A stretch of DNA of 64,000 nucleotides, from positions 1-64,000 of the forward strand of contig JAJFHU010000061.1 in NCBI GenBank assembly GCA_021775455.1. Reading direction: 5' to 3'. This stretch comes from Hyphomicrobiales bacterium. Lineage in GTDB: Bacteria > Pseudomonadota > Alphaproteobacteria > Rhizobiales > Rhizobiaceae. Position 1 is the stretch's first letter. Every line of letters begins with the position of its first letter. Below are positions 56,931-58,885 of the stretch, piece after piece. The notes below the pieces were generated by a model. The model was not told where the DNA came from, ran no database searches, and saw nothing but the letters and a program-made list of their open reading frames with translations. Made by a program: the position numbers and the translations under genes.

Positions 56931-58286
56931 TTATTCTGCAGCAGATTCACCGGCAAGAAATTTGCGATCAATTTCCGGCAATTCTTCTCCGGACAGTGCA
57001 GCTTCAAAGGCTTTAAGGCGTTTGTACACGGACAAGAGTTCCACGATGGTTGTCCAGGAGTTGATCAGATACTGGAAGGAACCCTCAACCCGACCAAATG
57101 CCCGGATGATCTGCTGCATTACCCCAAGTGTGATTACACCGGATGCAATCGTGGGTGTTAGCGCGATGTACGGCACCAGATTGCCGATTTGCAAATAGAA
57201 AATTCGCACTACGTTGAAGTAGAGATAGTGAAAATATAGGCGGAAATAGTTTTTTCGAACATCGGCAAACAATTCTGCAACTGACGGTGGTTTCGCCCGC
57301 TCTTCGTCGTCTTCTCCATAAACGAGCTCTTTTCGGTAGGCGGCTTCTACCCGTTGGTTGCGAAACTCCAGGCCGGGAAGCATGATCCCCGCCGCCGCTA
57401 CAAGAGCGGTACCAAATATCGACCAAAGAATTGCCACGAACACCAGTCCCTGACTCACTTCACCAATGATTGGAAGTACGGTTACCTGCGCCGACAATAC
57501 CCAAAGAAGCGGCAGGAACGCAATCAGGGTCATAACCGAATCCAAAAGATTCACACCCAGGCTTTCAGTAATCGCAGCAAATCGTTTTGCATCTTCCTGA
57601 ACACGCTGGGAAGCACCTTCAATGTGACGCAACTCATCCCATCGTGACATGTAGTAGTCGTTCATGGCGGTACGCCAGCGGAACACATAGTGACTTACAA
57701 AGAATCGGAACAGAACCGCAACAAACACATAGACCAGGGCAATCTTCAAGAACGTGGCGATCTGCAGGTAGATGCTGGAAGCTTCTACTGCGCCTGGTTT
57801 ACCCAGTGCTTGTTGGATAAGGTCGTAGAACGCTCCGAACCATTCATTGATCATGACATCAAGCTGAACCAGAAACCAGTTTACAAAGAAGATCAGGGCT
57901 GATCCCCAAACCGACCACTTTTGCCAGGGGTGTTGCGCCAGGCGCGTCCAGAACCCGCAGAACAGCACAATCGCCAGAACCAAATATTGGTAAAACCAGA
58001 AATTTCCGGCACCTGACGATGCTGCTGCGTGAGCTGCTTTGGCGGCATCATCTGCGTCTGCCGCAAGCTCCGCTGGAAAGTAAAACCCAAAAAGGCTTCC
58101 AAGGCTGAAAATGAAGCCCATATCCACTGCTACGAAAAACCATAACAAGACGCAAAGTAACGACCAGACCGCGAAGGAACCAAAATAAAGCCGGGGTGCA
58201 GGGAAAAAAGAATGAAACACTTGTGGCTTCTCCAGTTCTATTGGTTCCAGGGCGTCAGCGGATGTTTGCCTTGGCTTAGCCGCCAA
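56931..58286 (-). CDS. sbmA: SbmA/BacA-like peptide transporter
   Basis: A 451-residue SbmA/BacA-like inner-membrane protein with several membrane helices and no nucleotide-binding domain. VSHYVFRWRTAMNDYYMSRWDELRHIEGASQRVQEDAKRF is the characteristic conserved segment. Relatives import proline-rich peptides, microcins and bleomycin, and BacA is needed by rhizobia in symbiosis. The start is a TTG without a good ribosome site, so the first residues are uncertain. The 3' end faces the DksA-like gene. Confidence 0.92.
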   Translation of the reverse strand: MAAKPRQTSADALEPIELEKPQVFHSFFPAPRLYFGSFAVWSLLCVLLWFFVAVDMGFIFSLGSLFGFYFPAELAADADDAAKAAHAAASSGAGNFWFYQYLVLAIVLFCGFWTRLAQHPWQKWSVWGSALIFFVNWFLVQLDVMINEWFGAFYDLIQQALGKPGAVEASSIYLQIATFLKIALVYVFVAVLFRFFVSHYVFRWRTAMNDYYMSRWDELRHIEGASQRVQEDAKRFAAITESLGVNLLDSVMTLIAFLPLLWVLSAQVTVLPIIGEVSQGLVFVAILWSIFGTALVAAAGIMLPGLEFRNQRVEAAYRKELVYGEDDEERAKPPSVAELFADVRKNYFRLYFHYLYFNVVRIFYLQIGNLVPYIALTPTIASGVITLGVMQQIIRAFGRVEGSFQYLINSWTTIVELLSVYKRLKAFEAALSGEELPEIDRKFLAGESAAE

Positions 58287-58449
58287 CCGTCACGCTCGCA
58301 AGGCATTTATCCTTAAATTTTGGAAAGAAAGACTTCAATTTTTCGAAGTGTGCATAATCGCACAGATAGCGTTTTCGTTACCCGCTATATCTAAATCATC
58401 AGAACAGAACACCGCTCAGGTCAGAGCCCACACTACAGCCTGAACGGAA

Positions 58450-58563
58450 AAGGTCCTCCCGGTTAACGCCCCTTACCGGGAGGGCCTTCCAGGATTACCG
58501 GAGACGGCCTATTTTCGCCCCTTAGGTCCACTCGGTCAGAGCCGTCTCCACGGTGGAGGCGGC
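58450..58563 (+). ncRNA. structured leader RNA with alternative hairpins
   Basis: Hairpin 1 pairs 58450-58463 with 58475-58488 (14 bp, AAGGTCCTCCCGGT / ACCGGGAGGGCCTT). Then arm A GGAGACGGC (58500-58508) pairs perfectly with arm B GCCGTCTCC (58541-58549). Arm B can instead pair with arm C GGAGGCGGC (58555-58563) across a 5-base loop, so A:B and B:C exclude each other. The single imperfect pairs are G-U if the plus strand is transcribed but A-C if the minus strand is, which points to a plus-strand RNA. It stands in the 5' leader of the small gene at 58646. No known riboswitch class is recognised. The 160 bases before it, towards sbmA, contain only weaker dyads. Confidence 0.6.
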
Positions 58564-58645
58564 TCAAATATTTCCCGTTAACATTGTTGTTACCAATTGC
58601 GCAGAGAATCACCCGTACCAACGCGATTCGTACGGAGTACGCCCA

Positions 58646-58885
58646 ATGCACATCGTCACCGATGAAGACGTGAAGTTTCTTGCGCAATTTGACAGTTCTG
58701 AACTGGATCTTATGGATGCCATTGCCGCGGACCAATTTGCCGAGAAAATGGATGATGTTTTGCTCGACATCGAGGAATTGGATCCGCAAGCCTGCCCACC
58801 AGACCAGCGCTATTTGCTGGGTGACCGGGAAGCCTGGGTCTACGAGCACGGCAATGTAGCTGAACTGGTGTTTGTTCGCACCTGA
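58646..58885 (+). CDS. small acidic hypothetical protein
   Basis: A 79-residue acidic protein. MHIVTDEDVKFLAQFDSSELDLMD opens it, an Asp/Glu-rich helix follows, and it ends REAWVYEHGNVAELVFVRT. I do not recognise the family. The ATG at 58646 is preceded by GGAG at eight bases; a GTG at 58553 would begin inside a leader hairpin arm and is less likely. The long structured leader suggests post-transcriptional control. Confidence 0.6.
   Translation: MHIVTDEDVKFLAQFDSSELDLMDAIAADQFAEKMDDVLLDIEELDPQACPPDQRYLLGDREAWVYEHGNVAELVFVRT

Follow-up and report, generated by a model that had tools for sequence, protein, structure and literature searches.

Organization of the locus

The region studied here lies in a stretch of 64,000 nucleotides from a Hyphomicrobiales bacterium (contig JAJFHU010000061.1, positions 1 to 64,000), which was analysed as a whole and is referred to as the window. 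Its genome is designated G000; other genomes and loci carry G and L numbers. Between a divergent sbmA/bacA transporter gene and a gene for a small protein of 79 residues, the window contains a structured element. We propose that this element, at positions 58398-58574 of the plus strand, is a gene in its own right that encodes a trans-acting small RNA (sRNA), a reading that comparison with related loci makes probable. The features of the locus on which the argument draws are the following:

56931-58220, minus strand: divergent sbmA/bacA transporter gene (NCBIfam PRK11098.1, 613 bits; Pfam SbmA_BacA)
58349-58364, plus strand: CRP/FNR-like palindrome TGTGCATAATCGCACA, proposed activator site centred at -41.5, recognized by conservation
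58386-58391, plus strand: proposed -10 element TATATC, at a fixed spacing from the box
58398-58574, plus strand: proposed sRNA gene of about 177 nt, with a start placed by promoter geometry and an end after P3
58412-58447, plus strand: weak 5' hairpin P0, predicted from the fold alone
58450-58488, plus strand: hairpin P1, 14 bp, with loop 58464-58474 (UAACGCCCCUU)
58497-58536, plus strand: hairpin P2, which holds arm A, with loop 58512-58522 (UUUUCGCCCCU), from folds
58500-58508, plus strand: arm A of a proposed switch, with a 9-bp pairing to arm B in the window alone among 11 loci compared
58539-58565, plus strand: terminator-like hairpin P3 (arms B and C), 12 bp, supported by covariation
58646-58885, plus strand: gene for the 79-residue protein, with a weak DUF3944 match below cut-off

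For sbmA/bacA, we infer a GTG start at 58220 from the point where the family match begins. A closed reading frame was not found within the RNA, where the sole start codon, GTG at 58553, opens a frame that runs into the small gene.

Fold of the element

The minimum-energy fold consists of the three hairpins P1, P2 and P3. The initial annotation, made from the letters of the window, had described a 14-bp hairpin followed by three arms, one of which could pair with either of the others, and had proposed an RNA switch in front of the small gene. The description itself is accurate. Arms A (58500-58508, GGAGACGGC), B (58541-58549, GCCGTCTCC) and C (58555-58563, GGAGGCGGC) are present, A pairs with B in nine of nine Watson-Crick pairs, and B pairs with C in nine pairs that include one G-U. 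The 14-bp hairpin (58450-58463/58475-58488) also contains one G-U, and both imperfect pairs are G-U on the plus strand, as had been stated. However, the B:C pairing sits inside a longer stem of 12 bp (58539-58550/58554-58565). B and C are thus the opposite sides of P3, and A is a part of the 5' side of P2.

The letters CGCCCCTTA are common to P1 (58467-58475) and P2 (58516-58524), where they occupy mostly loop positions. Folds of L036, L037 and L038 predict a P2-like hairpin of two parts with a CGCCCCU loop, and that of L048 a less similar form. The plus-strand fold of positions 58435-58580 has a z-score of -4.28, with none of 200 shuffles equally stable, versus -1.38 and 18 of 200 for the minus strand.

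Distribution in relatives

A DNA search found matches in 11 of 101 genomes, including that of the window. A protein search with the family of the small gene found 27 loci besides that of the window, several of which coincide with places from the DNA search. All 27 are in metagenome-assembled genomes labelled Rhizobiaceae, Hyphomicrobiales, Phyllobacteriaceae or Alphaproteobacteria, and Salaquimonas and Nitratireductor are among the carriers. A structured RNA lies between sbmA and the small gene in 21 of these 28 loci (window included) and is missing from the other seven (L050, L052, L055, L056, L059, L061 and L062).

A covariance model, R1, was built from the window and L036 only, with rough calibration. 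It matches 12 other loci on the plus strand with E values from 5.5e-13 to 0.0034, some of them over P1 only (L037, L038, L048, L054, L060, L057, L039, L042, L043, L040, L047 and L051). Genome-wide, R1 reports eight of the 101 relatives at E <= 1, and 14 of 394 genomes of the family at E <= 0.1. Seven of these 14 are the known group (G000, G005, G006, G008, G012, G412 and G480). The other seven (G027, G394, G396, G434, G477, G577 and G665) were dropped, as CGCCCC is found on neither strand of the match and the places seem to hold other hairpins or none; G396 comes near, with a loop that contains AACGCCCGTT. The minus strand of L011, a locus of G012, holds a second P1-like hairpin away from the small gene. 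It is followed by a U tract and stands behind the box, with two letters changed, at the usual spacing.

Covariation

The stems of the hairpins change by compensation, while the loops keep the C-rich letters CGCCCCUU (or CCCUU). In 14 distinct P1 hairpins (window and L011 included), 183 of 192 cells are paired, and 13 of the 14 pairs have at least one double change. There are 39 double-change cells; re-dealing the 3' arms gives 8.3 on average, and 0 of 2000 controls reach 39. For P3, 15 rows (window included) yield 49 double-change cells versus 13.7 in the controls, and again 0 of 2000 reach the observed count. The arms were chosen and aligned by hand outward from the loop, because MAFFT had put P1 out of register by one base in part of the rows; the high paired share is therefore given by construction, and it is the double-change counts that carry the argument. 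Since the re-dealing of arms ignores shared ancestry, the control fractions are not probabilities. The P1 count omits L048 (asymmetric bulge) and the six loci that do not have P1, with L060 identical to L054; the P3 count omits L042, L046 and L049 (register or bulge) and L054, L057 and L060 (no separate P3).

The z-scores point in the same direction. In 20 of 20 RNA-bearing loci (a set that excludes L046), the plus-strand value (-1.4 to -7.5) is below the minus-strand value, and the plus-strand range in the seven loci that do not carry the RNA is -1.8 to +0.7. Together, the covariation of P1 and P3 and the strand bias uphold the suggestion of the initial annotation that RNA pairing has been selected on the plus strand; relatives had been named there as the place to look for covariation, and both P1 and B:C covary in them. 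The structure is thus conserved on the strand presumed to be transcribed, as expected for a trans-acting sRNA. The loops are the best-kept part of P1, their letters staying while the stems drift. A constant loop on drifting stems is the usual sign of a pairing seed, which suggests such a role here.

Putative promoter and terminator signals

The palindrome upstream of the element, TGTGC-N6-GCACA with at most one of ten fixed letters changed, is present in 20 of 20 RNA-bearing loci that hold the upstream DNA; L042, with a contig that begins inside the element, is not among the loci scored. The box was found in none of the seven RNA-less loci, with up to 1200 bases scanned. The motif YTANNT was scored twenty bases past the box in 21 aligned sites (L011 included). 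It is exact in 16 of them, and 20 fit when one change is allowed, among them 19 of the 20 RNA-bearing loci; T, A and T are counted 19, 20 and 17 times in the 21 sites. In L049, the -10-like element is one base further from the box. In 17 of the 21 sites, the base at a distance of 41.5 from the centre of the box, the presumed start of transcription, is an adenine. A -35 element resembling CTTGAC or TTGACA was not found.

In the class II layout of CRP/FNR promoters, the activator is centred at -41.5, and the CRP consensus is TGTGA-N6-TCACA. The spacing of box and -10 element fits the geometry of a class II activator at -41.5, as far as sequence can tell. The exact CRP consensus is found in none of the 21 boxes, and TGTG-N8-CACA in 20 of them. 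The consensus of the VtlR/LsrB box matches none of the 21. The EcfG-type promoter of the Caulobacter sRNA GsrN (consensus GGAAC-N15-18-GTT) is absent from 58221-58460. At the other end of the element, seven to nine T are found in the ten bases after a hairpin in 11 of 21 loci, in three of them behind P1.

The pairing of A with B

For the proposed switch, arms A and B would have to pair in relatives as they do in the window. The A region pairs with B in a run of nine at most in the window, and of only four or five in L036 (the closest by R1 score), L037, L038, L048, L051, L039, L040, L042, L043 and L044. These lengths are matched by 14 to 83% of shuffled A regions and are thus at chance level in all ten relatives, so that the pairing is not even conserved. 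In contrast, B:C is kept as a run of 9-13 pairs in all eleven loci. The comparison covers ten of the 20 other RNA loci, leaving out the six that have no P1, three that have no separate P3, and L041. The strongest other duplex of the A region with B, in L051 (run of 5), has a calculated energy of -13.4 kcal/mol versus -19.9 in the window.

In the window itself, the A:B pairing is unusual. Its nine perfect pairs are reached by a fraction of 0.003 of shuffled A regions, and none of 1000 dinucleotide shuffles of the sequence from 58450 onward yields a 9-nt arm with partners on either side. The latter shuffle also destroys the real hairpins, and therefore does not prove selection on A:B. By calculation, forcing A:B costs 10.1 kcal/mol and would disrupt P2, in which A is located, and P3; its probability in the full RNA is 0.0, and it dominates when the 3' end lies between 58548 and 58560. 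B:C would be the normal state, and A:B could form during synthesis and then be displaced. The A:B pairing of the window may be a strain-specific folding intermediate.

A search of 58300-58700 against Rfam found no riboswitch match up to E 10, in line with the initial annotation, which had recognized no known class. The only Rfam match above cut-off in the window is a SAM_alpha riboswitch at 1859-1947 on the plus strand (51.3 bits). A riboswitch or attenuator was rejected on three grounds, namely that A:B is not conserved, that it is costly in energy, and that the RNA is lost from loci that keep the gene. A riboswitch would be expected to have mutually exclusive pairings as a conserved feature, and to be in leader position wherever the gene occurs; neither is found here, since seven of 28 loci have no RNA and L046 has a wide gap between RNA and gene.

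The small gene

Two motifs belong to the small gene rather than to the RNA:

58578-58593, plus strand: TTAAC-N7-TTAC, tied to the small gene and not to the RNA, found in all 28 loci when one mismatch is allowed (as in L059)
58625-58641, plus strand: GATTCGTACGGAGTACG, which surrounds the ribosome-binding site of that gene, almost invariant in many relatives

The first is in tandem in several relatives. Its half-sites resemble CtrA boxes, but with a period of 12, not 11. The ribosome-site motif GATTCGTANGGAGTACG is found with 0 mismatches in 13 of the 28 loci, with one in six more, and with two to six in the other nine. At up to two mismatches, GATTCGTACGGAGTACG occurs once in its own genome; it could form a 5-bp CGTAC/GTACG stem with GGA in the loop. 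In the seven RNA-less loci, TTAAC-N7-TTAC is kept in all seven, and the ribosome-site motif, within three mismatches, in six. The gene is rare, as it was found only in the genome of the window among 297 sampled genomes of the order. The predicted structure of the protein (mean predicted local distance difference test score, pLDDT, of 63) is of too low confidence for a fold search.

The initial annotation had taken the element to be a leader of this gene. The comparison does not support this role, for the gene persists alone in the seven loci mentioned. Moreover, in L046, box and element are intact, and yet about 345 bases separate the end of P3 from the TTAAC element of the gene, compared to 12-90 bases in the other 20 loci.

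Relation to known small RNAs

An Rfam search up to E 3 of the loci of nine relatives found nothing on the element. The nearest family is BjrC80 (RF02354), an sRNA of Bradyrhizobiaceae, which scores 23.3 bits (E 0.016 for 401 bases) and does not reach its curated cut-off of 80. With stricter filters, a search of the G000 genome gave no RF02354 match at E <= 1. Among the 101 relatives, this family matches 13 genomes at that threshold, one of them above cut-off. The alignment spans the whole model and is best over the first hairpin, which has a GCCCC loop, and the 3' hairpin. The strong BjrC80 hit L014 folds by itself, and its loops hold CGCCCCC and CGCCCCCC. Unlike the element next to sbmA and the small gene, the BjrC80 copy of G094, the single BjrC80 locus from which its genomic place was judged, has a protease gene (DegP-like by eye) on one side and a gene for a response regulator on the other. 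The corresponding protease/response-regulator gap in the genome of the window (L074, 1385-1500) has a different hairpin with an GGTCGCCTCC loop and a terminator-like hairpin, as judged by eye, and is possibly another sRNA.

C-rich loops are known from several sRNAs of Alphaproteobacteria. According to the respective reports, the exposed C-rich 5' loop of GsrN in Caulobacter pairs with G-rich mRNA (PMC5869019), the CCCC loop of Caulobacter CcnA binds GGGG in 5' leaders (PMC8959179), and PmaR of Agrobacterium is a lineage-restricted Rhizobiaceae sRNA that acts via a C-rich loop (PMC6234868). GsrN, CcnA and PmaR are all likened to the element by their published descriptions. Unlike the element, GsrN homologues are usually found near a stress-response locus, CcnA is encoded at the replication origin, and PmaR is one spoon-like stem with a single loop. 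EcpR1, to judge from its published description, differs from the element in its loop (UCCGCCGCAUCU) and in genomic place.

AbcR1, NfeR1 and VrsA are Rhizobiaceae sRNAs driven by the activator VtlR/LsrB, with seeds that are, for example, anti-Shine-Dalgarno, and VtlR also activates small proteins (PMC7486931, PMC8844928 and PMC10746234). The VtlR/LsrB box, GCAT-N3-TG-N3-T or TGCA-N6-GCAT, fits none of the 21 boxes. It is located upstream of the -35 element, whereas the box described here occupies the place of the -35 element, which was not found. Among the papers listed by term searches of the open PubMed Central library, from which most subscription papers are absent, none names this locus.

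Other sites behind the box

A first pattern for box and -10 element, TGTGY-N6-GCACA-N19-21-YTANNNT, has ten matches in five of eight genomes, versus 0 for the reversed pattern. A second pattern, allowing one mismatch, has 74 matches versus 17 reversed in the eight genomes that carry the RNA or its kin; nine of the 74 had served to define the pattern. In four other genera, the counts are 1 versus 3 reversed.

Small proteins follow other box sites, and four of them are alike between G000 and G008 (45-61% identity). Of nine such proteins scanned, seven are without a Pfam match, one belongs to DUF1127, and one matches only weakly, below cut-off.

Several further loci were noted in the course of the comparison. 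In L172 of G008 (345-700), TGTG...CACA boxes precede two RNA-like units in tandem, which contain C-rich stretches and terminator-like hairpins; genes nearby resemble coq10 and lipA by eye. A second sRNA-like unit stands under the same type of box in L127 (1501-1650) and in L128 (on its minus strand), from G006 and G005; it bears a weak resemblance to MmgR/suhB (22.2 and 23.5 bits, cut-off 41). In G012, the same box and -10 element precede each of the copies of a gene for a small secreted-looking protein in L176, L177, L179 and L180, of which three are near identical and the fourth is more divergent.

Discussion

The data are best accommodated by an sRNA gene with a putative promoter of its own, the product of which belongs to a proposed sRNA family that reaches no Rfam cut-off and occurs in some uncultured relatives of rhizobia. 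The sRNA gene would be switched on by a CRP/FNR-like or other dimeric activator. Its two CGCCCCU loops would be seeds that pair with G-rich mRNA stretches of the AAGGGGCG type, altering translation or stability of the mRNA as the C-rich loops of GsrN, CcnA and PmaR do, and P3 would terminate or protect the RNA. We have less confidence in this loop-mRNA mechanism than in the independence of the gene. The pattern AAGGGGCG-N0-12-ATG occurs 131 times in six genomes versus 41 for the reversed pattern, an excess that is confounded by the likeness of AAGGGG to Shine-Dalgarno sequences.

A number of observations weigh against this interpretation. The -10 motif is exact in only 16 of the 21 sites, and a scan of the window finds no standard-type promoter and no terminator. 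The U tract after P3 is poor in the window (AAATATTT) and in L036, and read-through into the small gene is therefore possible. All copies except L011 adjoin the small gene, and most were found via that gene. Six of the 21 elements (L045, L046, L047, L049, L053 and L058) lack P1 and share just the position, the box, one CGCCCCU loop and a 3' hairpin. Among these, R1 detects L047 weakly (E 0.0017), gives L058 no significant score (E 1.1 and 1.6), and misses L045, L046, L049 and L053 altogether; the six, which are the most diverged elements, may be analogues and not homologues of the others. Genome-wide, R1 misses the element-bearing G003, G004, G010 and G015, among others. It also scores the minus strand at the same place in nine sources, more weakly (best 1.5e-06), an effect of the near mirror symmetry of P1. 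Among 76 AAGGGGCG-N0-12-ATG sites in four of the six genomes, 29 precede plausible frames, none of which are related (BLASTP, 1e-5). Finally, the first and stricter box/-10 pattern has no match in G000, the genome of the window, and the second is not enriched in G005 (8 versus 7 reversed).

The strongest alternative is a static 5' leader that is co-transcribed with the small gene and tunes the stability or translation of its mRNA. RNA and gene share a strand and in most cases adjoin each other (21 of 28 loci), the weak U tracts of the window and L036 would permit co-transcription, and BjrC80 in Magnetospirillum is reported upstream of hypothetical proteins (PMC9549626). However, the gene retains its own upstream motifs where the RNA is absent, U tracts follow P3 or P1 in 11 of 21 loci, and L046 separates the two by its 345-base gap, so that we regard a leader as unlikely.

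A protein-binding decoy (sponge) or a processing signal, with C-rich loops that bind protein, is a still weaker candidate. A protein ligand could also explain why loops are kept while P1 stems drift, and a conserved mRNA target was not found. The C-rich loops of several alphaproteobacterial sRNAs have nevertheless been shown to pair with mRNA, as reported for GsrN, CcnA and PmaR, and we consider the decoy very improbable. A riboswitch or attenuator in which A:B and B:C alternate to set expression of the 79-residue gene has the least to recommend it, in spite of the nine perfect pairs of A:B, its calculated predominance for 3' ends at 58548-58560, the downstream position of the gene and the lack of a standard terminator in the window, for it founders on the comparison with relatives described above.

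If the sRNA gene is accepted, its box may point further. Tentatively, and with considerably more doubt than for the gene itself, we suggest that the RNA is among the outputs of a so far unrecognised regulon in a branch of the Rhizobiaceae, in which a dimeric activator at -41.5 on TGTGY-N6-GCACA would drive several C-rich sRNAs (the RNA of the window, the tandem pair of L172 and the MmgR-like unit of L127 and L128) together with tiny secreted- or membrane-looking proteins.

The locus illustrates how a visually convincing three-arm switch can be undone by comparison, one of its pairings covarying and the other being found in one of the eleven genomes compared. The fixed geometry of the putative promoter offers a direct route to the controlling regulator. 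If the wider suggestion is true, the regulon would be a combined response of sRNAs and small proteins, comparable to the VtlR/LsrB regulon and separate from it.
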